From positions 1-25,731 of the IMG/VR virus record IMGVR_UViG_3300048672_000513: a stretch of DNA of 25,731 nt; one strand, given 5' to 3'. This document shows positions 1 through 22,320 of this stretch, piece after piece. The stretch is from a virus. Under the pieces are notes generated by a model that searched no databases, was not told the origin of the DNA, and saw only the letters and a program-made list of their open reading frames with translations. Each line of letters starts with the position of its first letter. Positions within the stretch are counted from its first letter, which is position 1. A program made the position numbers and the translations under genes.

Positions 1-1022
1 GTCTGAAATGCTGATGAGCCACCGCTTGCTGAAAATGCTTGGTTAGACTGTGATGTGAGATAGTTAGCGTTTGATGATTGGTAATCAGTCTTTACAGAGG
101 CTTGAATACCGTTAGCCTGAGTCGCCCACGTTACACCAGAACCCTCAACGAATTTAAGTGTAGAGAAGTTATAGGAGCCGTTAGAGGCAGAAGCTGCAAC
201 TGGTTGTACTGTTTGTGCTGGATAAGAAGCCGAAGCTGTGATTGTTCCAGCATTAAGTCCGAATGATACGTTGTTAGCATCTGATAGGTATTGGGTGTTT
301 GAGAGCGCTGTAGCGTTACCATTTACGCCTAAGATGTTATAGCCATCACCTGCGCCACCGCCTGCTGCTGGACCACTCAATGAAAGATTAACCCCATTTG
401 AATTTACTGTCATTGAACCAGATATATTAACACCGTTAAATGTCGTATTGGTACCTGCATAGCCCCTACCGTCAATAGATAGTCCACTAGAGTTAGCTGT
501 TATAGTGGCATTAGACACAGCCGTATTTAATCCGAGTGCTGGTTGTACAGTCTGGTTAAATGATGCTGATGCCGTTATAGTTGAGTTGTTTCCGCCAAAT
601 GTAATGTTGTTTCCGTTAGCAAATGAAATGTTACCAGTAGAGCCAAGAATAGATACCATATTATCTGTTTGTACTGACTGCGTGGGTACTGTGTACGATG
701 CGGTAATCTGAGTGGAATTAGACATACCAAATGATATACCGTTTGAGTTGGCAAACTTAACAGTAGCAAGCGTTCCAGCAGTTTGTGTACCAGCAGCAAG
801 TCGGTTAAATCCATCTGCGCCACCGCCACCACCAGCAGCACCCTGAAACTCTATAGTGTTTCCATTTTGGGACAAAGTTATGTTGTTGCCACCAGAGAGA
901 TACATCGTACCTGATGAGACTATTGCTGGAACTCCTGCCGTGTTACCTGTAATAGAACCAACGAAACCACCACTTATGTTAATTACGGTTGGATTTAAGT
1001 TAGATACAATTTGAAAGCCCAT
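1..1022 (-). CDS. Repeat-rich tail fibre/appendage-like structural protein, N-terminal part (runs off left edge)
   Basis: The reading frame is open from the ATG at 1022-1020 to the window edge, about 340 residues with no stop. The start overlaps the TAA of the upstream gene, so the two are probably translationally coupled. The protein is rich in Gly, Ser, Asn and Thr. It repeats a beta-type module of the form NxISFGxxNSTxITASY..., seen at least three times (NGISFGMSNST, NNITFGGNNST, NNVSFGLNAGT), each followed by ITAS(Y/A) and a Q-V-Q stretch. Glycine runs (GAAGGGGGGADG, GPAAGGGAGDG) separate the modules. This is typical of fibrous beta-structured phage appendage proteins that touch the host. 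The function is inferred from composition and position at the end of the virion operon; the C-terminus, where receptor specificity usually lies, is outside the window. Confidence 0.7.
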   Translation of the reverse strand, partial: MGFQIVSNLNPTVINISGGFVGSITGNTAGVPAIVSSGTMYLSGGNNITLSQNGNTIEFQGAAGGGGGADGFNRLAAGTQTAGTLATVKFANSNGISFGMSNSTQITASYTVPTQSVQTDNMVSILGSTGNISFANGNNITFGGNNSTITASASFNQTVQPALGLNTAVSNATITANSSGLSIDGRGYAGTNTTFNGVNISGSMTVNSNGVNLSLSGPAAGGGAGDGYNILGVNGNATALSNTQYLSDANNVSFGLNAGTITASASYPAQTVQPVAASASNGSYNFSTLKFVEGSGVTWATQANGIQASVKTDYQSSNANYLTSQSNQAFSASGGSSAFQ

Positions 1023-1942
1023 TATGCGTATGTCCCCGACGCTCTATTATTCCAGGTTACGTCTGTAGCTATTTTACCACTCATTGATGAAGATGTCGTT
1101 ACATCATATTTTGTTATAGTCCACCCCGTAGAATCATCTGGAGTACCTATTACTGCAAATCCAGTGTAAATTATTGGGCTATTACTCGTATCGTATCTCT
1201 CGGTATATACTTTACTTACTGTAGATAATGAGCCGTCTGTAAGGTTAGCTTGTGTTGCCTTACCCGTAGAATCTTTGAACGGTAATACATAATTAGGTAT
1301 GGGAAATTTTAAGTTATTAATGGCTTTTTGAACAGAATCTGTGGATTGAATAAGTGGGGTAAGGTCTAATTTAGTTTCGGGAAAAGTAATTTCTTTTACA
1401 GCTGATACAACTTTGCTTAATTCATCTATTATAGCTGTGTAGTCATCTGGGGTGTCTGGAACATTGATAATAGGTTTGAGCTCTATCTTATCTATAGAGG
1501 TTTTAAGGTCTTTTAACTCTTTTGAGTAGTCTACTTGATTCTTTACAGTAACAGTCTCTATGGGTTTGGGAATCTCAACTATAAAACTCTTAATACTGTT
1601 ATTTAATTCATTAATTGCCGCTATGACTCCAGAGTCATCTGGTTTTTCATTTGTTATGGTTGCTTGTAAATCTTTTAAAGCCTTTACTACTTCTTGTACA
1701 TCTGGGGTATGTACGGTCTCAATCGCTTCGGTTGGATTAGCCACAGTAACAGTGGTATTTGATGCCTGAAAATTAATAAGCTTGTTTATGGCATCTTCGA
1801 TTGTCTTGGTTACTGCCACTCCTGATGTAGCTACGGTCTGAACTATCTCATTGGTATTATTTTTCTGTAAATCAATAAGTGCCTGTTCTTTAGCTAAGTC
1901 TTGTTGCTCTTGATTATAGGCGTCTATTTGGTCTTGATTCAT
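1022..1942 (-). CDS. Coiled-coil virion structural protein (hypothetical)
   Basis: 306 residues. The N-terminal two thirds is polar and heptad-like, with repeated segments of the type 'I..I..LK.L...I' (for example around VVKALKDLQATI, LKDLKTSIDKIELKP and IIDELSKVVSAV) separated by Pro/Thr-rich strands. This suggests a trimeric shaft. The last 75 or so residues form a compact beta-like domain with several Trp, Tyr and Gly residues (...YTGFAVIGTPDDSTGW...). The gene sits directly upstream of the repeat-rich fibre gene with a TAA/ATG overlap. A baseplate, fibre-adaptor or appendage role fits, but I recognise no named family. It follows a 37-nt gap that carries a putative late promoter element. 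Confidence 0.6.
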   Translation of the reverse strand: MNQDQIDAYNQEQQDLAKEQALIDLQKNNTNEIVQTVATSGVAVTKTIEDAINKLINFQASNTTVTVANPTEAIETVHTPDVQEVVKALKDLQATITNEKPDDSGVIAAINELNNSIKSFIVEIPKPIETVTVKNQVDYSKELKDLKTSIDKIELKPIINVPDTPDDYTAIIDELSKVVSAVKEITFPETKLDLTPLIQSTDSVQKAINNLKFPIPNYVLPFKDSTGKATQANLTDGSLSTVSKVYTERYDTSNSPIIYTGFAVIGTPDDSTGWTITKYDVTTSSSMSGKIATDVTWNNRASGTYA

Positions 1943-1979: not shown

Positions 1980-2633
1980 CTAGTTCGTCCATAAGTGTCT
2001 TCTTTGTTCAAACATTTGCCTATCTTCGTTGACTTTTGCATCATTTTTCTTATAGGTATCATCATGCTTAAAGTCTCCGAGCCATGTGAAACTATGATGT
2101 TGGTGTAAGATACATGGCTTATCACAAAAAGACCATACGCCTCGTCTAATCGCTGTTTCGCTTAATTCATCATCTACATAGTTGTGGTGATATGGATAGA
2201 GAACCCTATTAGGCATATCTATAACACCAGATTGTTCTTCTATATATTTACGACGTATAAATGACATGGAAAAATATCTAGTATTAGGATTGCCATCATG
2301 TACTCCTAGTACACAGATGCTTTCGTTCTTTAATAACTCCAGAGGTTTTACGTCCCAATCTTTTATAAAAAAGAAATCATCATTAGCCCAAAAGAATATC
2401 TTTTCTTTGGTCGATTCATAGATAGACTGTAGGGCATCTGAATAACACGGTCTACCAGTATTAAATATAATCTTGCCCTGTATTTTTGATAACGCGTCTA
2501 TTGTGGGCTGGTCAAACTTTTCCACACCCCAGTATATTTTATATGCAGAGTTTGTAGCACGTTTAATATTATCTGCTACTGAAGCAAGTTTGTCTGCTCT
2601 GCCATAGGTAGGGATATATATTCCAAGCGTCAT
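1980..2633 (-). CDS. GT-A-fold glycosyltransferase-like protein
   Basis: 217 residues. It opens with a beta-strand and nucleotide-sugar-binding style start (MTLGIYIPTYGRADKLASV), as in family 2-type glycosyltransferases. A DXD-like acidic motif follows in 'FFWANDDFFFIKDW' (around residues 80-93), then 'VDDELSETAIRRG', which fits the later acidic/catalytic region. No membrane segment is seen, so it should act in the cytoplasm. It is the last gene of the sugar cassette; its start overlaps the end of the methyltransferase gene by 4 nt (ATGA). The donor and acceptor cannot be told from sequence. Assignment to the GT-A superfamily is fairly secure, the exact family is not. Confidence 0.68.
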   Translation of the reverse strand: MTLGIYIPTYGRADKLASVADNIKRATNSAYKIYWGVEKFDQPTIDALSKIQGKIIFNTGRPCYSDALQSIYESTKEKIFFWANDDFFFIKDWDVKPLELLKNESICVLGVHDGNPNTRYFSMSFIRRKYIEEQSGVIDMPNRVLYPYHHNYVDDELSETAIRRGVWSFCDKPCILHQHHSFTWLGDFKHDDTYKKNDAKVNEDRQMFEQRRHLWTN

Positions 2634-3829
2634 GCTGTTACAAATTCAAACTTTGGAAGCGGCACTATTAAGCAACCACCATTAGTAATATAGTCTTTTT
2701 CTCTATCTATGATTTCTTGGGCAAAGAACCAGGGTCCAACAATCATATAGTCTGGATTTCTTTTTCTTGCTTCTTCTTCGCTGATTATTGGAACATGAAT
2801 AGCATTGAAGTATTTACCTACTTTTTCTGGATTTCTTTCTATTGCGTAGTCAATCTGCTCTGGACCAAGATTTGCTGCTTGCCATATAGTTGCGCCTCTA
2901 GTGGATGCAGCGAGTATTGCGACTGATTTATTATCTTTTTTAGCTTCTATAACAAATTGCTTCAAATCATAAAGATTCTTCCATACATCATTAGCAAATC
3001 TTTCATATGGAGCATCAGTTTCTAGGCCATATTCTTTTTCTATTCTACGTTGATTAGCTACTGAATCTAGAACGGGACGCTGGCCCTTGTGAGCAATAAT
3101 AGTTCTTAAACTCCCGCCATTAACCATAGAAGTAGATAGGTCTATAATTTCTAGTCCATGACGTTCTAGTAGTGGTTCCATAGAGAGTAATGTGTAATAC
3201 TCAAGATGTTCATGACAGAAGTTATCTACAGCGTTTAATTGCATTGTTGGTAGGAGATAGTTTTGTTGGACAATCCATATACCGTTTTTCTTTAATACAG
3301 ATGCTACCCCTTCAACAAATGCATTTGGGTCATCCATATCATAAAAGCAAGATATAGATGTAATGACATCAAACTTAAAATATTTAAGTAGTTCTGCAGA
3401 AAAGAAATTGTTAACTATTAAATCTGCATGTTCTTCTGCCATTTTACAATATTTTGTAATAGGGTCTATCCCTACACGATATATGCTTTTGGGTACATAG
3501 CTTAGTAACGTACCGTCATTAGAGGCAATATCTAACCAGTTTTCTGCTTTAGGGTTAAATTCTAATGCGTTTTCAACATTATCCTTTAGGTCATCTTTAA
3601 TTGAATTAGAAACACCAGATTTAAAACCATAGTTGTCGTGGTACATTTCATGACTTGGGGTTGTATCTCTTAATTGAACTAAGTGACATTTATCACACTT
3701 TACAGCCACTATTGGATATGCTGGCGTATCTGAATTGTCTTTTCTAAAGTCTGATGTAAACTGTACACCTAAATCTAGTATCTCTTTAATATCTCCGTCA
3801 CAACTTCTGCATTTTGTTATAGTTTTCAT
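2630..3829 (-). CDS. SAM-dependent sugar C-methyltransferase (TylC3/NovU-like)
   Basis: 399 residues, the usual length of NDP-ketosugar C-methyltransferases. An N-terminal zinc-binding domain has the cysteine pairs CRSC (residues 7-10) and CDKC (about 45-48). The SAM-binding core includes 'WLDIASNDGTLLSY'. The family's active-site signature is present as 'FCHEHLEYYT', where a His-Glu pair deprotonates the carbon next to the keto group. The C-terminal third ('VAILAASTRGATIWQ') matches the third domain of this family. Known members methylate C-3 or C-5 of nucleotide-linked 4-keto-deoxysugars, giving branched sugars. Overlaps of 4 nt on both sides, with a glycosyltransferase gene and a 4,6-dehydratase gene, support that role here. 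The specific substrate is inferred. Confidence 0.8.
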   Translation of the reverse strand: MKTITKCRSCDGDIKEILDLGVQFTSDFRKDNSDTPAYPIVAVKCDKCHLVQLRDTTPSHEMYHDNYGFKSGVSNSIKDDLKDNVENALEFNPKAENWLDIASNDGTLLSYVPKSIYRVGIDPITKYCKMAEEHADLIVNNFFSAELLKYFKFDVITSISCFYDMDDPNAFVEGVASVLKKNGIWIVQQNYLLPTMQLNAVDNFCHEHLEYYTLLSMEPLLERHGLEIIDLSTSMVNGGSLRTIIAHKGQRPVLDSVANQRRIEKEYGLETDAPYERFANDVWKNLYDLKQFVIEAKKDNKSVAILAASTRGATIWQAANLGPEQIDYAIERNPEKVGKYFNAIHVPIISEEEARKRNPDYMIVGPWFFAQEIIDREKDYITNGGCLIVPLPKFEFVTA

Positions 3830-4731
3830 AATAAACTCTTTACTCCTTCTAAGAATGTTATTTTAGGTTCCCAACCCATTTCTTTTAGTTTATTGCCGTC
3901 TAATGCATATCTAAGGTCGTGTCCTGGGCGTGATGAATGAAAGTCTACCATCCTGTATTTCAAGTTCTTACCAAGTAAATCTGCTATTGTTTGGGCTACT
4001 TCGAGATTAGATACTTCTCTTTCGCCTACTATGTTGTATTTCTCTTGAGATATACCGTGTTCCATAACAAACTCAACTGCTTTAGCTATGTCTAATGTGT
4101 GTATGTAGTAGCGTGAGCCACTTATAGTCTTAGTAGGGTCTGAATGGATAATGACTTCTTCACCTTTTTTAATCTTTTGTATGGTATTTGGTATGAACTT
4201 TTCTATATGTTGAGATGGACCGTATGCGTTCATTGTGTGGGTAATGACTACTGGTATCTTGTATGTGTTTCCATAGGCTAGGGTTAGTTCTTCGCCACCT
4301 GCTTTTGCTGCACTATAAGGATTACCCGAGTTGTATCTGTCCCACTCTTTGTAATTAGTTCCTACTGATGCAGGACCAAATACCTCATCTGTTGAGAAGT
4401 AAAGGAACATCTTTAGGTTCTTTTGTTTACGTGCGAACTCCAGCATATTAGCTGTACCTAGTACGTTAGTGCGTACAAACAACAGTGGGTCTGTAATGGA
4501 GTTATCTACATGTGTTTCTGCTGCAAGATGAAGTATGTAGTCGTACTGCTCATCTATTTCTATTGGGTCTGTGATGTCTAGTTTGTGTATTTTAACGTCC
4601 CATTTAAGACGCGTAATATTAGCTGCGTAGTTTAATATGTCTAGTATTTCTACGTCGTGCCCCATTGTGTGTAGGCGATTTGCTAGTGCGGAGCCTATAA
4701 ATCCAGCACCACCAGTTATTAATACTTTCAT
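3826..4731 (-). CDS. dTDP-glucose 4,6-dehydratase-like SDR enzyme (RmlB-like)
   Basis: 301 residues from the ATG at 4731, which forms an ATGA overlap with the upstream gene and has GGAG 6 nt upstream. A TTG 12 nt earlier is less likely. It is an extended short-chain dehydrogenase with the Rossmann motif GGAGFIG (residues 7-13), the RmlB-type 'AAETHVDNSI', the catalytic Thr-Asp-Glu triplet in 'STDEVFG' and the YxxxK pair in 'NPYSAAKAGGEEL'. These residues fit oxidation at C-4 with loss of water across C-5/C-6, giving a 4-keto-6-deoxy nucleotide sugar. It is slightly shorter than cellular RmlB (about 350). The next gene is a C-methyltransferase that would use exactly such a product. The nucleotide (dTDP, GDP or UDP) is not certain. 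Confidence 0.82.
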   Translation of the reverse strand: MKVLITGGAGFIGSALANRLHTMGHDVEILDILNYAANITRLKWDVKIHKLDITDPIEIDEQYDYILHLAAETHVDNSITDPLLFVRTNVLGTANMLEFARKQKNLKMFLYFSTDEVFGPASVGTNYKEWDRYNSGNPYSAAKAGGEELTLAYGNTYKIPVVITHTMNAYGPSQHIEKFIPNTIQKIKKGEEVIIHSDPTKTISGSRYYIHTLDIAKAVEFVMEHGISQEKYNIVGEREVSNLEVAQTIADLLGKNLKYRMVDFHSSRPGHDLRYALDGNKLKEMGWEPKITFLEGVKSLL

Positions 4732-5612
4732 TTTGTTCTCCAATACTCTAGTACATCGTGAAGTGTACGTTCTATGTTATATTCGGGCTTCCATCCAGCT
4801 TCTTTTAATAAACTACTTGTTTGATACCTTGTTTTATCGGGGGCGTATGGTCTTACGAGGGTTGTATCTGTGGATGTCACAACAGGTACCTTGGCATTAG
4901 CCACTAATCTATCAAGAAGACTTTTAATCTCATATGTTTCCTCTGAGGCGATGTTATAGATATAGGGTTTTAAATCTATTGCTATTCTATAGGCTCTTAC
5001 CACATCTCTTACGTCTAGATAACTTTTAAAACTTGTAAGGTCACCATGTTTTAAAATATCTTGCTCACCGCGCTCTATTGCTACAATTTGTTTTGCAAAA
5101 GATGTAAGTGCAAATGGACCATCTTGTCCAGGACCAGTGTGATTTGTTGTTCTCGTCACTACTACCTGTAGTCCATAAGCCGCTGAATAAATAGCACCCA
5201 TTTGTTCCATAGCTAGTTTAGATACTCCATAAGGTGTTCTGGGTTGAATAGCAGACCCAACATCTAGTGGAGTATCATCAAGAGCTGGAGTATATACTTC
5301 TGTACTAGATGCAAGTTGGATTCTACAAGTAAGGTCTAGATTTTTAATAGCCTCTAATAGGGCAACACTACCTTCGATATTTATACTCATACATTCTGTT
5401 GGATTCTCAAAACTTTGTGGGACGCTTGTTATTGCCGCTAGATGATATATATAGTCTGGACGATGCTTTTTTAGTGCGTCGTACAATTCATGGGATAAGA
5501 TGTCTTTACCATCTACAAGGTCATATATTATAACTTCCTGTCCTTCATCTTCTAGGAGTTTTTTAAGGTGAGTACCGACAAATCCCCTGCCCCCCGTAAT
5601 AAACGATTTCAT
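4728..5612 (-). CDS. GDP-4-keto-6-deoxymannose reductase/dehydratase-like SDR enzyme (Rmd/GMD family)
   Basis: 294 residues, an extended SDR. It has the NAD(P)-binding motif GGRGFVG (7-13), 'LAAITSVPQSFENP', the substrate-region 'SSTEVY' and the YxxxK pair in 'TPYGVSKLAMEQ'. The segment 'RTTNHTGPGQ' followed by 'FAKQIVAIERGEQ...DVRDVVRAY' closely resembles Rmd-type 4-ketoreductases. The length also fits Rmd better than the longer GMD dehydratase. It would reduce a 4-keto-6-deoxysugar, completing a deoxysugar path begun by the RmlB-like neighbour. Its start overlaps the upstream glycosyltransferase by 4 nt. Family membership is secure; the choice between reductase, epimerase and dehydratase is inference. 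Confidence 0.78.
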   Translation of the reverse strand: MKSFITGGRGFVGTHLKKLLEDEGQEVIIYDLVDGKDILSHELYDALKKHRPDYIYHLAAITSVPQSFENPTECMSINIEGSVALLEAIKNLDLTCRIQLASSTEVYTPALDDTPLDVGSAIQPRTPYGVSKLAMEQMGAIYSAAYGLQVVVTRTTNHTGPGQDGPFALTSFAKQIVAIERGEQDILKHGDLTSFKSYLDVRDVVRAYRIAIDLKPYIYNIASEETYEIKSLLDRLVANAKVPVVTSTDTTLVRPYAPDKTRYQTSSLLKEAGWKPEYNIERTLHDVLEYWRTK

Positions 5613-6340
5613 TTTAGTTTCTCCAACAGGTCATCATATCCTCGTTCAGTAAAGGTTTTTGTATAATATTCTGGATAGTCTTTCCAGTTTGATTCGTCTG
5701 CAAATGTATAACCAAGTTTATCCGTCCAATGACCCATAATGAATCCTCTAACCATAATTTCTTGGCTGAACTTTACATCTTCTTGAATTGTGTGTGTTCC
5801 CTTACCAGCACTTTGCCATCTTGTTTCATCATAAATAATGCCCTTTTCCCACACGGCTCGACTTATGATATTTGGACCACCGACATTACCAGGCCAGTGA
5901 TTAATCGTCATGCCATTTAGTGTTAGTCTTTTACCCTGGGCTTCTGGTCCTGCAACAGCACTATAATCTAGTCCTAACTGTCCCAACTCTGGTATTTTTT
6001 CAAAGTATTCAGCTGCTTTTAAGTCCCAACCTTTTAATAAACACATATCATTATCAAGTCTCATAAGATGTGTTGCGTGAGGATAACGTTTTAATCCCTC
6101 AAACCAGCCAATATTACATGCCTTTCCAGGATAGTAGTTTTCTGGGTTAAGTATAAGCTGGTCTATTCTATTGCGTTTGAGTAGATTCTTAAGATATTCT
6201 TTTGTACCATCTGTTGAATCATTATCCACCACTACTAAATGATAGTCGGTATTTATATCTATTGTGTCGTGAAGATATTTTAGGGTCTTCTTGGTGTAGT
6301 TAAGACGATTATAGGTAATGAGTACAATGAGTAATTTCAT
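5609..6340 (-). CDS. Family 2-type glycosyltransferase
   Basis: 243 residues. It shows the classic GT2 opening 'LLIVLITYNRLNYTKKTLKYL', then 'LVVVDNDSTDGTKEYL' (around residue 35) that contacts the nucleotide, and a DXD motif in 'MRLDNDMCLLKGWD'. The Gly/Asn-rich 'GKACNIGWFEGL' before the DXD is also typical. Later, 'HTIQEDVKFSQEIMVRG' carries the acidic residues expected of the catalytic base region. No membrane helices are seen, so it is cytosolic. It is translationally coupled to its neighbours through 4-nt overlaps on both sides. Donor and acceptor are unknown; a sugar made by the downstream dehydratase/methyltransferase/reductase set is the natural guess. Confidence 0.8.
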   Translation of the reverse strand: MKLLIVLITYNRLNYTKKTLKYLHDTIDINTDYHLVVVDNDSTDGTKEYLKNLLKRNRIDQLILNPENYYPGKACNIGWFEGLKRYPHATHLMRLDNDMCLLKGWDLKAAEYFEKIPELGQLGLDYSAVAGPEAQGKRLTLNGMTINHWPGNVGGPNIISRAVWEKGIIYDETRWQSAGKGTHTIQEDVKFSQEIMVRGFIMGHWTDKLGYTFADESNWKDYPEYYTKTFTERGYDDLLEKLK

Positions 6341-7161
6341 ATCTCTATCCCGTTGTAGTCTATAACAACATACTTCTTTGGTGGTTTTACGCCTAAACCT
6401 TTTTCAATAAGAGTTTTTGCATGTCGTTTGTCGGTATTTACTTCTCCAGTTGGAGTAATAACAGATACTAGGTCGCCAGTTTCAACCACTGGATACTTCA
6501 TTATCTTGTTTAAAAGAAGGTTTTTCTTAACTACTGTCCATTCTTCTATCTTATGTGCCCCATTATTAGAGCCAGATTCTCCAAGTTTGATGAGTTTTCT
6601 TTGTCCTATTGAGGTATGTAAGAGAGTAATGGGTATATTATGCTTATATAGTTTGATGGAGAACGTCACATCGTGGATTCCATATCCATCATTGTCGTTC
6701 TGGTTAGCTGTAATTCTTATGTGTGTTCCATAGTTCTGTATGTTCCACTTAATATCTGTGCGGAATATTGGATAGCCTATCTTTTCTAATACTTCTCTCG
6801 TTACAAGAGTACAGCCAGTTCCACATAAAAGCACATTCCCGCCCTTATCTCTAAATACTGAACTCTGTCCCTGTCTATTTAGAGGATAATCGACACTCAC
6901 AACCCGCTCATGCATCCACAGCATATTTGTAAGCGTTTGTTCGGGGATAATCATATCGTCTTCTACAAACCAGAAATGGGTATTGTCATCATCTGCTAAT
7001 GCCCTTAGTGTGGGTTCTTCGAAACACTCAGGAATAGGTTTGCCGTGTGAGAAATATATCTTATGAGATATTCTCTTGACATTTTTGAGTATATCTTCTG
7101 CTGTTCGGCTAAACATTAGTCCTCTAGATGGAAGAATAACTGCAACTTTAAACGGTTTCAT
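6337..7161 (-). CDS. GT-A-like glycosyltransferase, paralogue 1 of a tandem pair
   Basis: 274 residues from the ATG at 7161, preceded by GAGGG 5 nt upstream; a GTG 6 nt earlier is too close to that site. It starts 'VAVILPSRGLMFSRTAEDIL', with a DXD-like 'FVEDDMIIPEQTL' near residue 80 and a conserved core: 'GTGCTLVTREVLEKIGYPIFRTD', 'GIHDVTFSIKLY' and 'GQRKLIKLGESGSNNGAH'. Nearly the same motifs, in the same order, occur in the adjacent gene at 7148-7954, so the two arose by tandem duplication. The C-terminal extension of about 40 residues is not shared. A glycosyltransferase role is inferred from the GT-A start and DXD-like motif. Confidence 0.65.
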   Translation of the reverse strand: MKPFKVAVILPSRGLMFSRTAEDILKNVKRISHKIYFSHGKPIPECFEEPTLRALADDDNTHFWFVEDDMIIPEQTLTNMLWMHERVVSVDYPLNRQGQSSVFRDKGGNVLLCGTGCTLVTREVLEKIGYPIFRTDIKWNIQNYGTHIRITANQNDNDGYGIHDVTFSIKLYKHNIPITLLHTSIGQRKLIKLGESGSNNGAHKIEEWTVVKKNLLLNKIMKYPVVETGDLVSVITPTGEVNTDKRHAKTLIEKGLGVKPPKKYVVIDYNGIEI

Positions 7162-7954
7162 ACTCACCCTCTTTCAAAACTGCTCGACCATCTACATATG
7201 TAATCCAATCAGGGATATGGTCCATTATCTCTACTGTTTTAACACGATTCATAGCACCCCTAAACTTATCTATTGCAACGGGGTCAATAGTTTTAATAAC
7301 TAAATCTCTTCCTACTTTAGTAAGTTTCTTAATCTCATGCGCCCCGTTATTCGTAGTTTTTTCACCAAGCCTGACCAGTTTTCTCTGACCTGCTGTTTTT
7401 ACCATAGTTTTAATTGGTAGTCCTGCGCTATAAAGAGTCATGCCAAAGTTAACATCATGAAGTCCGTAGGCTATTTTATTAAGTTTACGAGGCCAGAAGT
7501 AAAGAACATCTTTACCAATGAATGTGTCCCATGCTGTATCAGTTCTCCATATGGGTTTTTCCATTTGTCTAAGAATATCTGCAGCAACTAAAAGAAATCC
7601 TGTTCCACTCCAATACACATCTCCCTGTGGGTCATGAAGCATGGTAGAATCTCCATCTGCCTTAAATGGATAATCTAGTGCGATAATTGGATAGTTCTTA
7701 GCGAACATCTTTTTGAGAATACCTTTTGGAATAATCATGTCATCTTCACACAAAAGAATAGCGAATACTTCTAGGTCTGCGAGTGCCTGTTCTGTGGGGT
7801 CATTAAAGCATGCTGGAAGGCTTTTTTCGTGCGACCAGTATATTTCATAGTACATGCCCTCAAGCTCGCCCAGAAGTTCCTCAAATGTCTCAGAAAAAAT
7901 CAAGCCACGTGAGGGTAGTATGACAGCTAGCTTATTCTGCTGATTCGAGTTCAT
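7148..7954 (-). CDS. GT-A-like glycosyltransferase, paralogue 2 of a tandem pair
   Basis: 268 residues from the ATG at 7954; a TTG one codon earlier is ignored. It matches its downstream neighbour along its length: 'LAVILPSRGLIFSETFEELL', 'LLCEDDMIIPKGIL' (DXD-like), 'GTGFLLVAADILRQMEKPIWRTD', 'GLHDVNFGMTLY' and 'GQRKLVRLGEKTTNNGAH'. The conserved His-Asp and Gln-Arg-Lys groups are probably functional in both copies. It lies 14 nt into its downstream partner and 23 nt into its upstream neighbour, so all three are co-translated. It is the first enzyme of the sugar cassette. Enzymatic role is inferred, substrate unknown. Confidence 0.65.
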   Translation of the reverse strand: MNSNQQNKLAVILPSRGLIFSETFEELLGELEGMYYEIYWSHEKSLPACFNDPTEQALADLEVFAILLCEDDMIIPKGILKKMFAKNYPIIALDYPFKADGDSTMLHDPQGDVYWSGTGFLLVAADILRQMEKPIWRTDTAWDTFIGKDVLYFWPRKLNKIAYGLHDVNFGMTLYSAGLPIKTMVKTAGQRKLVRLGEKTTNNGAHEIKKLTKVGRDLVIKTIDPVAIDKFRGAMNRVKTVEIMDHIPDWITYVDGRAVLKEGEYETV

Positions 7955-8246
7955 CAACCAACTCTATCAAGGTCTTTACACTTGCTGTAAATTGACGAAT
8001 ATTATGGCGGTACTCAGAAACTTTAGCCTGATATTGACTTAGTACGGCTTCGGATTCTTTATTATCCTGGGCTTGCTTGAGCTGATTAACAGCTAAGATG
8101 TGGTCGATACGCTGGCGATAAAGTGCTTTACGAATTTCATCTAGTTGCGTTTTAACATATGAGTGCTTGATGAGGTCTTCTGCATCAATCTCCCCAGTAA
8201 TGCCAAATTCTTCGCAAACTTTCTTATCAATTTCTAGTGGTGTCAT
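7932..8246 (-). CDS. Alpha-helical hypothetical phage protein
   Basis: 104 residues, almost entirely polar helix. Residues 30-100 have a clear coiled-coil character ('QRIDHILAVNQLKQAQDNKESEAVLSQ', 'IRQFTASVKTLIELVDELE'). The start at 8246 has a good ribosome site (AAGGAG, 5 nt spacing). It is the first gene after the terminator at 8323-8349, so it opens the second part of the virion operon. I do not recognise a family. A small structural, assembly or chaperone role is possible by position only. Confidence 0.6.
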   Translation of the reverse strand: MTPLEIDKKVCEEFGITGEIDAEDLIKHSYVKTQLDEIRKALYRQRIDHILAVNQLKQAQDNKESEAVLSQYQAKVSEYRHNIRQFTASVKTLIELVDELESAE

Positions 8247-8276
8247 GTTACTCCTTATATTGTACTAATATTTATT

Positions 8277-8305
8277 ACAATATCACGTTAGGATAAGCGG
8301 TACAA
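8277..8305 (-). promoter_or_regulatory. Candidate sigma70-type promoter for the glycosylation/fibre operon
   Basis: On the minus strand TTGTAC (8305-8300) and TATTGT (8282-8277) are exactly 17 nt apart, just downstream of the terminator at 8323-8349 and 31 nt ahead of the ATG at 8246. Each box matches consensus at 4 of 6 positions. Position after a terminator and before a new gene run supports it. Confidence 0.45.
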
Positions 8306-8322
8306 GTATTTTATTTACAACT

Positions 8323-8349
8323 AAAAAGAGGACCTTTCGGTCCCCTCAT
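8323..8349 (-). terminator. Rho-independent terminator after the capsid gene block
   Basis: On the minus strand, GAGGGGACC - GAAA - GGTCCTCTTTTT forms a 9-bp stem (two G-T pairs) closed by a GNRA tetraloop and followed by a T run. It lies 7 nt past the stop of the tiny Cys peptide and ends the terminase-to-capsid transcription block. Confidence 0.85.
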
Positions 8350-8355
8350 TAGGTT

Positions 8356-8409
8356 TTAGCACTTACCCGTGCCGCCACATTTCGCGCACTTTTTCTTTGC
8401 AACACCCAT
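8356..8409 (-). CDS. 17-residue Cys-rich mini-protein
   Basis: The reading frame MGVAKKKCAKCGGTGKC starts at ATG 8409 with AAGGAG about 9 nt upstream, and stops just before a strong terminator. The C-x-x-C-G-G-T-G-x-C pattern is the half-site of a DnaJ-type zinc knuckle. It is preceded by a lysine run, suggesting metal binding next to nucleic acid or an acidic surface. It is the only gene between the major capsid gene and the terminator, so it should be transcribed as strongly as capsid. No database family is known to me. A chance ORF is possible, but the ribosome site, position and composition argue for a real gene. Confidence 0.55.
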   Translation of the reverse strand: MGVAKKKCAKCGGTGKC

Positions 8410-8432
8410 AGTGTTATCTCCTTGTTAGTTGA

Positions 8433-9302
8433 TTAGCTCTTAACAACGAAACCGAAGCTTGGTCGTAGAGAAGCCATACCCCAAAGGATATCAACAGTGA
8501 CTAACCAGCCCAAGTATTCCTGCTTGTATTGAGCCTGAGTACGTGGTTCTTGCTGAATAGCAACTGCAAATGCATCTTTGTGGAAGAACAGGTGTGAGTT
8601 CTGGTTAGGGTTTGATGTAAGTTGTACAAGGTTCTGTGACATGTAGACACGAACTCCGTAGATTTCACCAATTTGACCAGTCCTAATGCTGTTTTGGTCT
8701 CCACCGATACCCAATGCGTCGTAACGAATATACTTGTCAATAGCAAGCATTTCTTGCTTACCCTGTGGGGTAACAACGAATGAGCGGTCGGTTTGAGGGG
8801 CTTTTGCATCGTCAAGGTAGCGGTTAACAGTAAGAATAAGTGTATCATTCAAAGCTGTACCAAATGCACCGTAGCTTGTGAAAGCTGTGGTCATAGCGTT
8901 TGCTATACCGTTGTCGATTTTTGCAGAAATAGCATAAGCTGCTGCTGATGTATATTCGCTGCGTAGGTCGTATACTGCCTGAATCTTTGCGAAGTCTTCC
9001 AAAAGGAATGAGCTTTCGTAGTGTTGGTTGACGGTGATAGTTGTTTTAGTTTCTGTGTTGTAGTTCAAAGTAACGGCAACGTTTTGAGCCTTTGCGTTAG
9101 CAGTAATAGTACCAACGTTAGGGATTTCAACGGTCTGACCGCCAGCTTTAATGTCTGAATCGTAGTGGCGAACCAAAGGTACAAGTACCAAGTTTGCTTT
9201 TACGAACATAAGTACATCTTTACTCCAGATGTTAGGACGGAACACAGCTGCTGCTGTAGAACCAATGTTTACGTTTCCTGATGCGTATGCGCCAGTTGTC
9301 AT
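8433..9302 (-). CDS. Major capsid protein (HK97-fold type)
   Basis: 289 residues. The opening 'IWSKDVLMFVKANLVLVPLVRHYDSDIKAGGQTVEIPNVG' is the pattern of phage coat proteins: an N-arm, then a strand-rich domain starting with conserved 'G.T..IP..G'. Later, 'FVVTPQGKQEMLAIDKYI', 'GQIGEIYGVRVYMSQNL' and 'HKDAFAVAIQQEP' fit the A-domain of HK97-fold coats (a probable P-domain loop lies in the middle). It lies immediately downstream of a scaffold-like gene and upstream of a terminator, the usual head-module order. The ATG at 9302 has GGAGA about 8 nt upstream. It should be the most abundant virion protein. Confidence 0.85.
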   Translation of the reverse strand: MTTGAYASGNVNIGSTAAAVFRPNIWSKDVLMFVKANLVLVPLVRHYDSDIKAGGQTVEIPNVGTITANAKAQNVAVTLNYNTETKTTITVNQHYESSFLLEDFAKIQAVYDLRSEYTSAAAYAISAKIDNGIANAMTTAFTSYGAFGTALNDTLILTVNRYLDDAKAPQTDRSFVVTPQGKQEMLAIDKYIRYDALGIGGDQNSIRTGQIGEIYGVRVYMSQNLVQLTSNPNQNSHLFFHKDAFAVAIQQEPRTQAQYKQEYLGWLVTVDILWGMASLRPSFGFVVKS

Positions 9303-10212: not shown

Positions 10213-10419
10213 TTATTTCAAGACAGACCCAACTTTAATGTGGTCTATTACCTTTATAACACCACTTGATTCTTTAATCAAGCCATAAGCGACGTCGGCT
10301 GTTTGAGCAGTCTGTGCTTCACGAATAAGTGTGTCACTTAATTTCTGTAAGGTTTCAAGAAAATGTTTACCAAATTCGCTTTTCACAAAAGCGTCGTATT
10401 GTAGTTGTCTATCCTGCAC
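10213..10419 (-). CDS. Small helical protein between portal and scaffold
   Basis: 68 residues starting with GTG at 10419, inside the end of the portal gene; AAGGA lies 7 nt upstream. The predicted structure is almost all helix ('FGKHFLETLQKLSDTLIREAQ', 'VAYGLIKESSGVIKVIDHI'). No Cys and no membrane segment. It overlaps the portal by 11 nt and so is likely co-translated with it. Genes of this size at this location are common in podovirus-like head modules, but I do not recognise a family. Confidence 0.6.
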   Translation of the reverse strand: MQDRQLQYDAFVKSEFGKHFLETLQKLSDTLIREAQTAQTADVAYGLIKESSGVIKVIDHIKVGSVLK

Positions 10420-12307
10420 TTGGAGTTCCTTGTGGTTGTGTTGGGTCTATTGGTGGTGGGCCAGCTATAGATTGATGCATTGTGTCAAGATGTTGCTGTT
10501 GTTGCGCCATATTATCAGTGAGGTGAGTTGTCATCGCAGTATCATGAGTAGCTGATGGTTGGAGTCCTGCCATTTGTTCGAGTTCTGCCTTTATATCAGG
10601 AGCGGTGTTTATATAGGCTTTAGCGACACCTTCTAAAGCTATTTGTTCTGGCGTTTTATCTTTGGCATTCTTTTGTGAACCTTGTGCTGCTTGAGCAAGG
10701 TCCTGTTCACTCATCACTAATGACTGTACTTCTTCTGGGTTTAGGTCAAATGCTCTACCCATTACTAATTTAGTGAGGGGAACCTGCTTAACAATAGGAC
10801 TACCAAGGAAAGCTGAGTACATTTCTTTAAGATTGCGCATTTTAGCGTTCTTTTCCTGTTCAACTCGGCTTTTTAGCTTCACTCTTGGCTCATAATCACC
10901 CCTAAACATCTCTGGGTCGTATAATTCCCAAGAAACACCGTCTTTTCCAACTACTCGGTACATAGTTTTCTGAGTTACGTAGAGTCTAATCATCTGGAAT
11001 ATGAGTTTTGCTTGCTTATAATAGCCACCTGACTCAAGTTGGGTGACAATGAGGTCAAATCTTCGTCCACTAGAAATAGCTTGGGCTTTAATTTCTGTAG
11101 CAGTTTGGTCACCCTGGGCATTTACACCTTTTGCAATCTCATCTACGGCTGATGTTTCACGAATCTCGTTCTTAATGTTTGTTCGTTCATTAAACATATT
11201 GCCTGGAACGATTGGTTTTTGAACGGCCTGGTAACTTCCTGGCTTAAACGGATACACTGCACCCGTAACATTTTTAACTTTATCAATATAGTCCTGATAT
11301 TGTGGGTCTAATTCCATTACTGGGTCTAGTGCCCACGATACTGCGTCTATATTTTGGTTAGTAAGGTCGTTAAGCATCTCTTGAGCTTTGGCTATAGGGT
11401 CAATGATTGATTTTCCATACAGCTGAGACTCGTCTGCAAAGAGTGAATCTATCGTATAAGGGAACATTCCCGTTGGATTCTCTATTCCGAGGAATTGTTG
11501 GCGTTCTTTAAAAGGATTTGTACCCTCATAAACTATCTGTTCGCGGTTTGCTACATAAATCATGTCGTCTTTTGTAAAGTAACAGATGATTTCTAGCTGG
11601 TCTTTTGATGCTTCCTTATCAAGAGTGGACCCCATAGTAGTATCTTTGTCTTGTTTATCGGTGTCATCACCTATTTCAAAGCCTTCACCTAGTTTATCGA
11701 GGTTCTTATACTTAGGAATAAGTTGGTTTTTAGGGTCGTCTCCCTCTTTCCAGTCGGGATTAACTATCTTTTCGTCCATCATCGCACTTTTAGATGCGAG
11801 GAAACGGTGGCCCATATAAGCGGCATTCTCATATTCGTTCAATGTAGCACTAGGGTCACAGAAGAAATCTCTTAAAGGAATGTTTTTCCATACTGGATGG
11901 TCAATGTCCCAGTAATAAAAGGATACTGTTGTTCCTAATTTGAAAAGTATTCGGTTAGATTGAACTGCCTTGAGGGTGAATCCACCTATATCCCAGTAAT
12001 AAGAATAGAGTCCATTAAGGACTGCTGTGTTAGTTTCTTGAGCTGGGTGAGTTGGCATATATTCAACAACTGGTTTTTCACCGCTTGTTGCGGAAACCAT
12101 AGCTTCAACTGTTGAGAAGGCCATTGGGACGAATGTATCTGAGATTCCATTGTATCCTACATTAACTCGCTTGTTATTGTAGAGGTCATCATTGTCTTTC
12201 CATTTCTTATGCCAAGAGCTAGAGGTGTAGTTCCAACTAGAGTTAAATGCTTTTACTACTTTTTGTACTTTGTCGTCGAGTATTTTAGTATCAGCCATAT
12301 CATCCAT
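10409..12307 (-). CDS. Portal protein (P22-like head-to-tail connector)
   Basis: 632 residues, the size of podovirus-type portals. The N-terminus reads 'WHKKWKDNDDLYNNKRV...ISDTFVPMAFSTVEAMV', a typical portal start. The middle carries 'IPLRDFFCDPSA' and 'MLNDLTNQNIDAVSWALDP', plus 'GVNAQGDQTATEIKAQAISSGRRFDLIVTQLESGGYY', features common to P22-like portals. The C-terminus is Gln-rich, ending 'DPTQPQGTPSAG', and probably forms the barrel or a disordered tail. Twelve copies would form the vertex ring through which terminase pumps DNA. It follows the large terminase gene after a 34-nt gap holding a putative late promoter element. Confidence 0.87.
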   Translation of the reverse strand: MDDMADTKILDDKVQKVVKAFNSSWNYTSSSWHKKWKDNDDLYNNKRVNVGYNGISDTFVPMAFSTVEAMVSATSGEKPVVEYMPTHPAQETNTAVLNGLYSYYWDIGGFTLKAVQSNRILFKLGTTVSFYYWDIDHPVWKNIPLRDFFCDPSATLNEYENAAYMGHRFLASKSAMMDEKIVNPDWKEGDDPKNQLIPKYKNLDKLGEGFEIGDDTDKQDKDTTMGSTLDKEASKDQLEIICYFTKDDMIYVANREQIVYEGTNPFKERQQFLGIENPTGMFPYTIDSLFADESQLYGKSIIDPIAKAQEMLNDLTNQNIDAVSWALDPVMELDPQYQDYIDKVKNVTGAVYPFKPGSYQAVQKPIVPGNMFNERTNIKNEIRETSAVDEIAKGVNAQGDQTATEIKAQAISSGRRFDLIVTQLESGGYYKQAKLIFQMIRLYVTQKTMYRVVGKDGVSWELYDPEMFRGDYEPRVKLKSRVEQEKNAKMRNLKEMYSAFLGSPIVKQVPLTKLVMGRAFDLNPEEVQSLVMSEQDLAQAAQGSQKNAKDKTPEQIALEGVAKAYINTAPDIKAELEQMAGLQPSATHDTAMTTHLTDNMAQQQQHLDTMHQSIAGPPPIDPTQPQGTPSAG

Positions 12308-12341: not shown

Positions 12342-13697
12342 TTATCTATAGCGATTTCTTGCTGCTACTTTGTCCATGTCTATGTTGGGTTCAACTATAG
12401 TTGAGGGGCGCTGATTCATTAGTAGGTATCGAACTGCGTCATAAAGGTGGTCCTCTGCTCTTGTATCTATGTCTTCTGGACGTGAAATATCTACAGGAAG
12501 ATTTGGAAAGGTACGGATGAAATTAATACATGATGAAAAGACTTGGAGTCTTGGAAGACCATCTGCTTGTGGGGCAAGAGCTTCATGAATTGCAGCCTTA
12601 CCTGCTTTTCTATCATTATTCGCAGGAGAGAATATTAAATTATGATTCTGGAAGATTTTAGCGATAAGTTCTCCCGTCTCTGCATTACCAACAGCTTTCC
12701 ATATAGATGGGTCGGCAAGATGCATGATGATTCGCTCGTCGGATTCCATCATCTTGATAATTTCGGCCTGTTTGCCAACAATCATTTTAGTCTCATAGAA
12801 CTCTCGATAAATATAAACTCGGTTTGTTATGGGGTCTATGGCTCCCCACACAGCAGCAGCATAGGTGTTATACCCATAGTCATAAGCCATCCACTTCGTC
12901 CAGTGATTGGGAATCTGAAACGGGGCAACAACATGATAATCTTTTCCATCCTTTTCCCTGCGCCATTCTTCAAAAGCCTGTCCCGCAAATATATCCCAGT
13001 CTCCATCACGATATGCCCTACGAAGATTAGGGTCAGAGATTGAATCAAGAACCTTGGAATAAGAAGCAATAAAGTCTTTCGAAACATGGTCAGTTACTTT
13101 GGCGGGAATGAAGGTGCGCGTATTCTTGTATTCATCTGTGTAGATAGTTTCTGGTTCACCTATGTCAATGAAGTAAGACTTCACCCACGCATGTCCAATT
13201 CCGCCTGGGTTTGTGGCGCACATTATCTTAAGAGGATTCTTTAGGCTTGAGCGAACCCTAGTCTTTAAGAACTCGTATTGTTCCTTAGTGAAGTGAGTCA
13301 ACTCGTCCATTAAAAGAAGGTGAATCTCAGCAGACTGGTACCTGTACATATCTGCTGGACTCTCTAAGTAAGCGAGTTGAACGATACTTCCATTCGTGAA
13401 GTTGAAGACAGAATCCTGGGAGTTAAACTTTACGCCTTTAGCGATGTTCATATAATCCGCAGTCTGCTTTAGAAACTCAGGAACTACGGATTGTTTAAGC
13501 TCTGGAGTAGTCTTTCTGAAAACATAGACTCGACTCTTAGGCCATTCTAGAGCATAGGTAATAGCTTCCGCTACAAGGGCCGCAGTCTTTCCACCACCAG
13601 CTGCACCACCATATAAAGTCTCAAAAGCTGTAGACTGATGAAACTTTGTCTGGCGTTCAGAGGGTGTATAGTCAGGTACCTTAACGGTTTTTGGCAC
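12342..13697 (-). CDS. terL: Terminase large subunit
   Basis: 451 residues. The ATPase domain has Walker A 'GGAAGGGKT' (residues 30-38), Walker B 'LLLMDELT' (around 130) and a coupling-type 'MCATNPGG' (about 155-162). The C-terminal RNase H-like nuclease starts with 'WMAYDYGYNTYAAAVWGAI', with further acidic residues at 'HLADPSIW' and 'RAEDHLYDAVRYLL', matching the usual three-metal-ligand arrangement. It packages DNA into the prohead through the portal and cuts the concatemer. The start is GTG at 13697, with GAGG about 7 nt upstream; it overlaps a small upstream ORF. Followed directly by the portal gene. Confidence 0.93.
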   Translation of the reverse strand: MPKTVKVPDYTPSERQTKFHQSTAFETLYGGAAGGGKTAALVAEAITYALEWPKSRVYVFRKTTPELKQSVVPEFLKQTADYMNIAKGVKFNSQDSVFNFTNGSIVQLAYLESPADMYRYQSAEIHLLLMDELTHFTKEQYEFLKTRVRSSLKNPLKIMCATNPGGIGHAWVKSYFIDIGEPETIYTDEYKNTRTFIPAKVTDHVSKDFIASYSKVLDSISDPNLRRAYRDGDWDIFAGQAFEEWRREKDGKDYHVVAPFQIPNHWTKWMAYDYGYNTYAAAVWGAIDPITNRVYIYREFYETKMIVGKQAEIIKMMESDERIIMHLADPSIWKAVGNAETGELIAKIFQNHNLIFSPANNDRKAGKAAIHEALAPQADGLPRLQVFSSCINFIRTFPNLPVDISRPEDIDTRAEDHLYDAVRYLLMNQRPSTIVEPNIDMDKVAARNRYR

Positions 13698-21558: not shown

Positions 21559-21920
21559 AGGAGTTTAGGGCTACAGTTCTGGGTAATCTCCAGTCTAAAG
21601 CTAACTCCCGAAGAATGATTAAACCTGGGCTTGTTATTAAATCTAAAGCAGCACTAGAGTTCGAGCAATCTGCACTTCTACAACTCAAAGCTCCCATGAG
21701 GGGTAGAAAACCTTTTGAGGGCGATGTAGCTTGTGAGTTTGAGGTATACTATCAAAGTAGACGAAGCGACCTCGACACCTCTCTTATACGAGATATTCTG
21801 CAGAAGGCTGGTGTCTATCTAAACGACAGGCAGATAACCTCGGTAGGCGAGTGGAAGCATTTAGATAAAGAAAACCCGAGGGTAGAAATAACGGTATATG
21901 AAGAAACCAATAATTTGTAG
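21555..21920 (+). CDS. rusA: RusA-family Holliday junction resolvase
   Basis: 121 residues, the length of RusA. It starts at GTG 21555 (GTGA overlap with the upstream stop). The N-terminal strand 'FRATVLGNLQSKANSRRM' and the segment 'RRSDLDTSLIRDILQKAGVYLNDRQI' carry the family's catalytic aspartates (D..LD... and ND at the end of the helix). It is a dimeric, metal-dependent nuclease that cuts four-way junctions, clearing branched DNA before packaging. Followed, with a 23-nt overlap, by a zinc-knuckle HNH protein often found beside resolvases in phages. Confidence 0.83.
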   Translation: MKEFRATVLGNLQSKANSRRMIKPGLVIKSKAALEFEQSALLQLKAPMRGRKPFEGDVACEFEVYYQSRRSDLDTSLIRDILQKAGVYLNDRQITSVGEWKHLDKENPRVEITVYEETNNL

Positions 21921-22320
21921 AGCTTGCGGGACGCTGGGGCATTACAAATACCAGTGCTACTCAACGCCCAAGAAAAAGATAAAAGTTAAACGAATGGTTA
22001 TAAAACGGAAACCAGTTGTTCAAAAGACAGATATTCGATGGGTTGCTACCAAAAGAAAATGGTTTAAGGCGAATCCTCCTATCAACGGGTATTACCAGTG
22101 TATCTACTGTCTTAAGATAATTACAAAGGATGATGAACTAAACGACTTCGGAGTATCACTTATGACGCTTGACCATAAAATACCAAAAAGTAATATGAAC
22201 GGTATAAAGTTGAAGTACGATATTGGCAATTTAGTTCCTTCGTGCTGGGAGTGTAATTCCAAAAAAGGTTCCATGAGCTATGATAACTACATTAAAAAAT
22301 ATGCCAAGCATTTACTTTAG
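21898..22320 (+). CDS. HNH endonuclease with N-terminal zinc knuckle (NinG-like context)
   Basis: 140 residues. The N-terminus has a CCHC knuckle 'CRACGTLGHYKYQC'. A basic linker follows, then an HNH fold: 'CIYCLK' ... 'LDHKIPKS' ... 'NLVPSCWECNSKKGS', with the zinc-structural Cys pairs and the catalytic His in 'LDHK'. The pairing of an N-terminal knuckle with this HNH core recurs in phages beside RusA and resembles NinG-type recombination proteins in context. It probably nicks or cuts DNA during recombination or packaging. Start at ATG inside rusA. Confidence 0.75.
   Translation: MKKPIICRACGTLGHYKYQCYSTPKKKIKVKRMVIKRKPVVQKTDIRWVATKRKWFKANPPINGYYQCIYCLKIITKDDELNDFGVSLMTLDHKIPKSNMNGIKLKYDIGNLVPSCWECNSKKGSMSYDNYIKKYAKHLL

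Follow-up and report, generated by a model that had tools for sequence, protein, structure and literature searches.

Giant viruses carry their own sugar-nucleotide enzymes and glycosyltransferases (GTs), which build the glycan on the virion, and the type of sugar varies by lineage. The locus described here lies on an IMG/VR virus contig of an uncultured phage (IMGVR_UViG_3300048672_000513), whose 25,731 analyzed bases we call the window. Next to the major capsid gene it encodes four predicted GTs (GTa to GTd), a putative sugar C-methyltransferase (CMT) and two short-chain dehydrogenases/reductases (SDRs), RED and DH. It differs from the giant-virus systems in belonging to small-genome tailed phages and in having a single swap slot beside the capsid gene.

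Among tailed phages, mycobacteriophages glycosylate their capsid and tail tube with phage-encoded enzymes (Freeman et al., 2023, as cited in a passage of PMC12619734). The phage GT families phrog_7162 and phrog_14945 adjoin Rmd and CMT genes in three loci of our collection (L011, L012, and L025), whereas the window encodes a dedicated module for the sugar nucleotide, which is swapped at a fixed site. A similar gene row is found in Synechococcus phage DSL-LC02 (OR032571), where Gmd, CMT, GDP-fucose synthase, and GTs follow one another, but this phage is a metagenome-assembled cyanomyovirus. The relevant passages of PMC10611076 mention Gmd together with GDP-fucose synthase for both DSL-LC02 and P-SSM2, in the former as a GDP-fucose route, and do not discuss the C-methyltransferase between the two genes. 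Our searches of the open-access literature turned up no description of a phage sugar C-methyltransferase or of a C-methyl branched sugar in phages. Thus, virion glycosylation is already known, whereas the fixed-site cartridge arrangement and the predicted C-methyl sugar appear to be new.

We propose that the locus probably serves virion glycosylation in a phage clade and consists of a constant GT core followed by an exchangeable sugar cartridge that is moved by recombination. The genes, their linkage, their conservation, and their exchange are established here.

Constant glycosyltransferases and an exchangeable slot behind the capsid gene

Searching IMG/VR with the capsid gene yielded 80 loci. 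In 38 of these, near-duplicates among them, the sequence extends more than 3.5 kb past a clade capsid gene (at least 60% identity), and GTa, GTb, and GTc were found downstream of the capsid gene in 38/38. The linkage of GT genes to structural genes by which virion glycosylation is recognized was therefore present in every capsid relative. In capsid relatives of no more than 38% identity the GTa-GTc trio is missing, and other genes follow the capsid gene directly.

The sequence-only reading of the window had named four GT-A-like genes, and this was borne out by a Pfam match for GTc (PF00535), by model and Foldseek for GTa and GTd, and by paralogy to GTa for GTb. The EDDM motif is invariant in GTa and GTb. 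Pfam gave no match for GTa and GTd. The AlphaFold model of GTa (pLDDT 62, pTM 0.67) has as its top Foldseek match the archaeal virus GT STIV A197 (2c0n, E 2.5e-6), followed by the lysyl hydroxylase LH3, ColGalT1, and Mimivirus R699. That of GTd (pLDDT 72, pTM 0.75), in which an NDDF motif is invariant, matches SpsA (3.7e-8), the rhamnosyltransferase RmlT, and the fucosyltransferase WrtF. A GT-A fold is thus supported for both proteins but not proven, as the models are of moderate confidence. A tblastn search with GTa against 50,697 annotated phage records gave no match, and these phages are therefore uninformative on the GT trio.

The slot behind GTc differs from phage to phage. In 13 loci it holds FnlA, WecB, and either FnlB or a protein resembling the C-terminal part of WbjC, often with a methyltransferase; by NCBIfam these calls lie above the cut-off for WecB and below it for FnlA. 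About 13 relatives thus carry in this slot the FnlABC/WbjBCD pathway to UDP-L-FucNAc, which makes another sugar and is absent from the window. Examples of such a phage-borne UDP-L-FucNAc-type pathway are L121, L129, L149, L203, and L205. Other slots contain a GT and an epimerase (six loci), a DH-like gene with WecB (three), a DH-like gene with a GT and an epimerase (two), a DH-like gene only (two), a UDP-sugar dehydrogenase (one), or a methyltransferase and a GT (one). The CMT type is present in the window, L002/L159, L003, L005, L009, and L038.

On quick trees of the capsid protein and of GTa, in which several forks are weakly supported, either tree requires the slot type to change 12 times or more. 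The CMT type is polyphyletic, with five separate positions on the capsid tree, and the closest capsid relatives of the window with a known slot carry FnlA/WecB. Between the window and L002, identity is 81% for both RED and CMT, 65% for the capsid protein, 57% for the portal, 45–63% for GTa-GTc, 64% for GTd, and 31% for orf306. Since RED and CMT are more alike than the genes around them, the module has probably moved between phages.

GTd travels with CMT. Strong GTd homologues occur in four further loci and in L038, in 5/5 downstream of CMT and directly so except in L008, where a LAGLIDADG gene intervenes. This LAGLIDADG endonuclease-like gene (L008, 9191–9619) separates CMT from GTd, and a different capsid type lies upstream. 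The fragment L210, which holds a remote GTd homologue (33%), contains no CMT, and strict pairing is therefore limited to strong homologues. In other slot types, for example GT plus epimerase, the transferase is a weaker GTd-like protein. Together, the pairing of GTd with CMT and the GTd-like genes in other slots suggest that the exchanged unit is sugar synthesis plus its cognate transferase. CMT and GTd also follow other capsid types, namely a phrog_1328 major head protein in L004 and a PF25209 protein in L008, which again points to the particle as the target.

The C-methyltransferase, its partners, and its likely substrate

CMT is very probably a C-methyltransferase, judged by family and structure matches. 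It has the complete Methyltransf_13/23/14 architecture, and all three domains exceed the Pfam cut-offs: PF08484 (9e-40, 136.5 bits), PF13489 (2e-12, 47.5 bits), and PF08421 (2e-10, 40.9 bits against a cut-off of 31.3). The closest solved structures are TylC3 (4rv9, E 1e-46) and TcaB9. With these TylC3/TcaB9/NovU-type enzymes CMT shares the three-domain architecture, the zinc-domain cysteines (C7, C10, C45, and C48, nearly invariant), and the catalytic Glu-His pair. For the active-site residues we use the numbers and catalytic roles of TcaB9 (Glu224, His225, Tyr76, His181, Tyr222). In our alignment, the Glu224/His225 pair is conserved in 27/27 viral and 73/73 cellular homologues, and the Tyr76 equivalent is kept in all 100 except for one gap and one Phe. 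The equivalents of His181 and Tyr222, in contrast, are Asp and Cys in the window CMT and most of its subfamily; the TcaB9 reference was copied from the structure-match alignment, and its entry has Asn at 181, which we set to His as in TylC3. By alignment CMT therefore represents a distinct subfamily with a changed active site, and it further differs from the known enzymes in being phage-borne beside a capsid gene and in having subfamily neighbors elsewhere that are mostly of the GDP-sugar type. Between the window and L002, CMT and RED have a dN of about 0.14 at saturated dS, and thus both are under purifying selection. CMT homologues were found in 7/50,697 annotated phage records, in line with the earlier remark that a branched-sugar set with its own transferases is unusual in phages. 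The earlier reading of sugar C-methylation as phage-borne, with its own transferases and placed within the virion operon, is supported too. The 735-kb uncultured phage L007 (LR756501) has two divergent CMT genes (3306–4529 and 8001–9227) about 3.5 kb apart.

The family assignments given before to RED as Rmd-like and DH as RmlB-like also agree with our matches (2pk3 and TIGR01181, respectively). For RED, the closest solved structures are the GDP-6-deoxy-4-hexulose reductases 2pk3 (6e-46) and 6x3b. It scores 160.6 bits with Rmd (2pk3) versus 64.3 bits with Gmd (1db3), and its NHTGPGQ signature is of the Rmd kind, not the NHESPRRG of Gmd. RED thus resembles Rmd in the NH(T/I)GPGQ and YxxxK motifs, but it lies beside a C-methyltransferase and has no phage-borne Gmd with it. 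These features make it a candidate 4-ketone reductase. A Gmd-type dehydratase was considered, as RED has Glu at the dehydratase position and, after the second strand, an Asp of the sort found in NAD users, yet the solved Rmd 2pk3 shares this Glu and Gmd signatures are absent, so that we give this option low weight.

DH reaches 268.9 bits with TIGR01181, short of the equivalog cut-off of 365.1. It aligns with RmlB at Thr-Asp-Glu, YxxxK, and RPGHDxRY, and we classify it as RmlB-like only and not as an RmlB equivalog. Its nearest relatives (53–55% identical) lie on phage contigs that have no CMT match, and the slots of other clade phages repeatedly contain more distant DH-like genes. Both observations suggest that DH was acquired separately.

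The cassette of the nearest relatives is RED-CMT-GTd. In L002, RED runs into CMT with a four-base overlap and without DH, and L038 and L003 likewise have RED and CMT without DH; RED identity to the window is 81% for L002, 72% for L038, and 41% for L003. In L002, L003, L011, L012, L013, L015, L016, and L025, the gene immediately or nearly immediately upstream of CMT encodes an Rmd-type SDR. Near 27 viral CMT genes the SDRs are Rmd-like (eight), Gmd-like (seven), or Fcl-like (seven), with none in nine, so that 18/27 loci have a Gmd, Rmd, or Fcl neighbor. No RmlB-type SDR was detected near CMT in the other viral loci, DH being confined, among viral CMT relatives, to the window phage. The proposed gene-neighborhood check thus upheld the linkage of CMT and GT in relatives, whereas DH appears nowhere else beside a viral CMT; nor does the idea of a complete three-enzyme pathway fit relatives that lack DH or have no SDR next to CMT at all. 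Near the 73 cellular CMT genes, Gmd (23) and Fcl (15) are the prevailing types, and RmlB-type SDRs occur near eight, all archaeal (L054–L058, L063, L065, and L093). Gmd, Rmd, and Fcl have GDP-4-keto-6-deoxymannose in common. As most SDRs that accompany CMT in other loci are of the GDP-sugar type, the likely substrate of CMT is GDP-4-keto-6-deoxymannose, partly supplied by the host.

Proposed glycan assembly and competing explanations

On these grounds we picture the following sequence of events. GTa, GTb, and GTc would initiate a short glycan on a virion protein and elongate it, the capsid and the fiber-like protein being the most likely acceptors, while the cartridge would make a particular sugar nucleotide and bring its own transferase. 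In the window, host Gmd may supply GDP-4-keto-6-deoxymannose. CMT, as far as its family is a guide, would methylate a ring carbon next to the 4-keto group of this 4-keto-6-deoxyhexose nucleotide, and RED would then reduce the ketone. GTd, given its strict linkage to CMT, would cap the glycan with the C-methylated deoxyhexose. DH could be a late addition that either provides these enzymes with a dTDP-type 4-keto sugar or serves another transferase. Recombination would move cartridges between phages and create a new sugar coat with the structural genes unchanged.

Several points weigh against this proposal. We infer both the acceptor, a virion protein, and the chemistry of the cassette, and the window itself is a fragment. 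Since the His181 and Tyr222 equivalents of CMT are Asp and Cys, it is uncertain which carbon is methylated. RED, a reductase by homology, may itself act as a dehydratase or a C4-dehydrogenase. A dTDP-type, RmlB-like DH beside a GDP-type, Rmd-like RED is an odd mix. Furthermore, there is no SDR between GTc and CMT in L005 and none adjoining CMT in L009 and L004, and these phages therefore need a ketosugar from the host or their CMT has another substrate.

The best of the alternatives, which we nevertheless regard as unlikely, is a chain on dTDP sugars in which DH makes dTDP-4-keto-6-deoxyglucose, CMT methylates it, and RED reduces the product, so that all steps are phage-encoded and no host dehydratase is needed. 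DH is intact and RmlB-like with its RPGHDxRY motif present, it overlaps RED on one side and CMT on the other by ATGA, and the characterized CMT relatives TylC3 and TcaB9 use dTDP sugars; the eight archaeal loci with an RmlB-type SDR, out of 73 cellular ones, also fit. However, the other viral CMT loci do without DH, even the one whose RED and CMT are 81% identical, and RED resembles the Rmd of GDP-sugar metabolism. The gene order also departs from the chemistry: the sequence-only reading had found the two to match, but the minus strand gives RED-DH-CMT, that is reduction, dehydration, and methylation, and the opposite strand methylation, dehydration, and reduction.

Still less probable, in our view, is that the cassette changes the host surface, i.e., an O-antigen or wall polymer, and blocks superinfection in the manner of serotype-converting phages or the lipopolysaccharide clusters of cyanophages. 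Deoxysugars with C-methyl or N-acetyl groups are typical constituents of O-antigens and cell-wall polymers, and Gmd and Fcl genes are found near cellular CMT homologues. Against this, the cassette adjoins the capsid gene in every clade relative, and different sugar types go with conserved structural genes. Hydrophobic 19-mers above 1.5, taken as membrane segments, are absent from all cassette proteins, and consequently the cassette has no flippase; polymerase, bactoprenol transferase, and membrane protein are likewise missing from it. The lack of membrane segments and the constant position beside the capsid gene make a host-surface role less likely. Serotype conversion of the GtrABC type was rejected, as the cassette has neither a flippase nor a membrane-bound transferase. 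That the GTs glycosylate modified bases of the phage DNA, as known for some phage GTs (Pyle et al., 2024, as cited in a passage of PMC12619734), is highly improbable, given the position in the late virion operon, the resemblance of GTa to GT-A enzymes that modify proteins and glycans, and no base-hydroxymethylating enzyme recognized among the window proteins scanned.

Borders of the locus, possible host, and meaning of the variable coat

Transcription of the minus strand runs from TerL through portal, scaffold-like protein, major capsid protein (MCP), orf104, GTa, GTb, GTc, RED, DH, CMT, and GTd to orf306 and the fiber-like protein (Table 1). The open reading frames named in the sequence-only reading are present at the positions it gave. 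Four-base ATGA overlaps join GTb/GTc, GTc/RED, RED/DH, DH/CMT, and CMT/GTd; those noticed earlier are real, provided that DH starts at the internal ATG (4731).

Table 1. Features of the window in order of minus-strand transcription.
Feature	Position	Strand	Description
TerL	12342–13697	-	First in minus-strand transcription order
Portal, SU10-type	10409–12307	-	After TerL, before the scaffold-like protein
Major capsid protein (N4-gp56/Phage_capsid_2 type)	8433–9302	-	PF19821 2e-12; TIGR04387 3e-7, below cut-off
orf104	7932–8246	-	Small protein between capsid gene and GTa
GTa	7148–7954	-	Predicted GT-A enzyme with EDDM metal motif; opens the trio
GTb	6337–7161	-	GTa paralogue, about 35% identity, EDDM motif
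GTc	5609–6340	-	GT2-family; PF00535 E 6.4e-13; last of trio
RED	4728–5612	-	Rmd-like extended SDR (SSTEVY, YGVSK, NHTGPGQ); putative GDP-sugar 4-ketoreductase
DH	3826–4731	-	RmlB-like 4,6-dehydratase (STDEV, YSAAK, RPGHDLRY)
CMT	2630–3829	-	Sugar C-methyltransferase (very probable): Zn-binding Cys, S-adenosylmethionine (SAM) domain, Methyltransf_14, HEH motif
GTd	1980–2633	-	Predicted GT-A glycosyltransferase; probably dedicated to the C-methyl sugar
orf306	1022–1942	-	Downstream slot border; Pfam: nothing above cut-off
Fiber-like protein	3–1022	-	Ser/Thr/Asn/Gly-rich; cut by the window end; named by position and composition

The major capsid protein anchors the locus and is a candidate glycan acceptor. 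The place of orf104 is kept in most relatives and its sequence evolves fast, with 26–32% identity in four relatives whose capsid proteins are 65–71% identical. Homologues of orf306 end the slot in many relatives. The cassette had been placed between capsid and fiber genes; the capsid gene indeed adjoins it, whereas the fiber assignment rests on position and composition, and Pfam and PHROG gave no match for that protein, which may be an alternative acceptor. The right part of the window is filled by plus-strand frames, mostly short, and an HNH endonuclease with a weak zinc-knuckle match lies at 21898–22320 on the plus strand.

The TerL matches are phages of many hosts at 35–37% and do not fix the host. 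One Candidatus Saccharibacteria metagenome-assembled genome (G001) contains two different clade phage contigs of 22 and 40 kb (C64 and C113; loci L038, L195, and L196), and a second genome of the Saccharibacteria class (G043) contains one (L197). Strong clade matches occurred in 2/393 genomes of this class versus 0/297 of a control class, that of an Actinomadura genome. Saccharibacteria are thus a possible host lead, with binning error as the alternative.

In a wider sense, the whole clade of small tailed phages may have a serotype-like glycan locus, a view for which we see about even chances: a fixed capsid-linked core would be combined with horizontally moving cartridges that bring their own terminal transferase, the coat would be under diversifying selection like an O-antigen, and one cartridge would provide a C-methyl branched deoxysugar. 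The CMT subfamily with its changed active site and strictly paired transferase would be useful to carbohydrate chemists. What virus-encoded glycans do is unsettled, and they are known from giant viruses and some actinophages. Here, the structural genes and core GTs stay constant while the sugar module was exchanged at least a dozen times, which amounts to a natural experiment on coat selection. Receptor masking, environmental protection of the particle, and adhesion to host glycans are candidate selective causes, and the clade offers matched phage pairs with which these could be tested.

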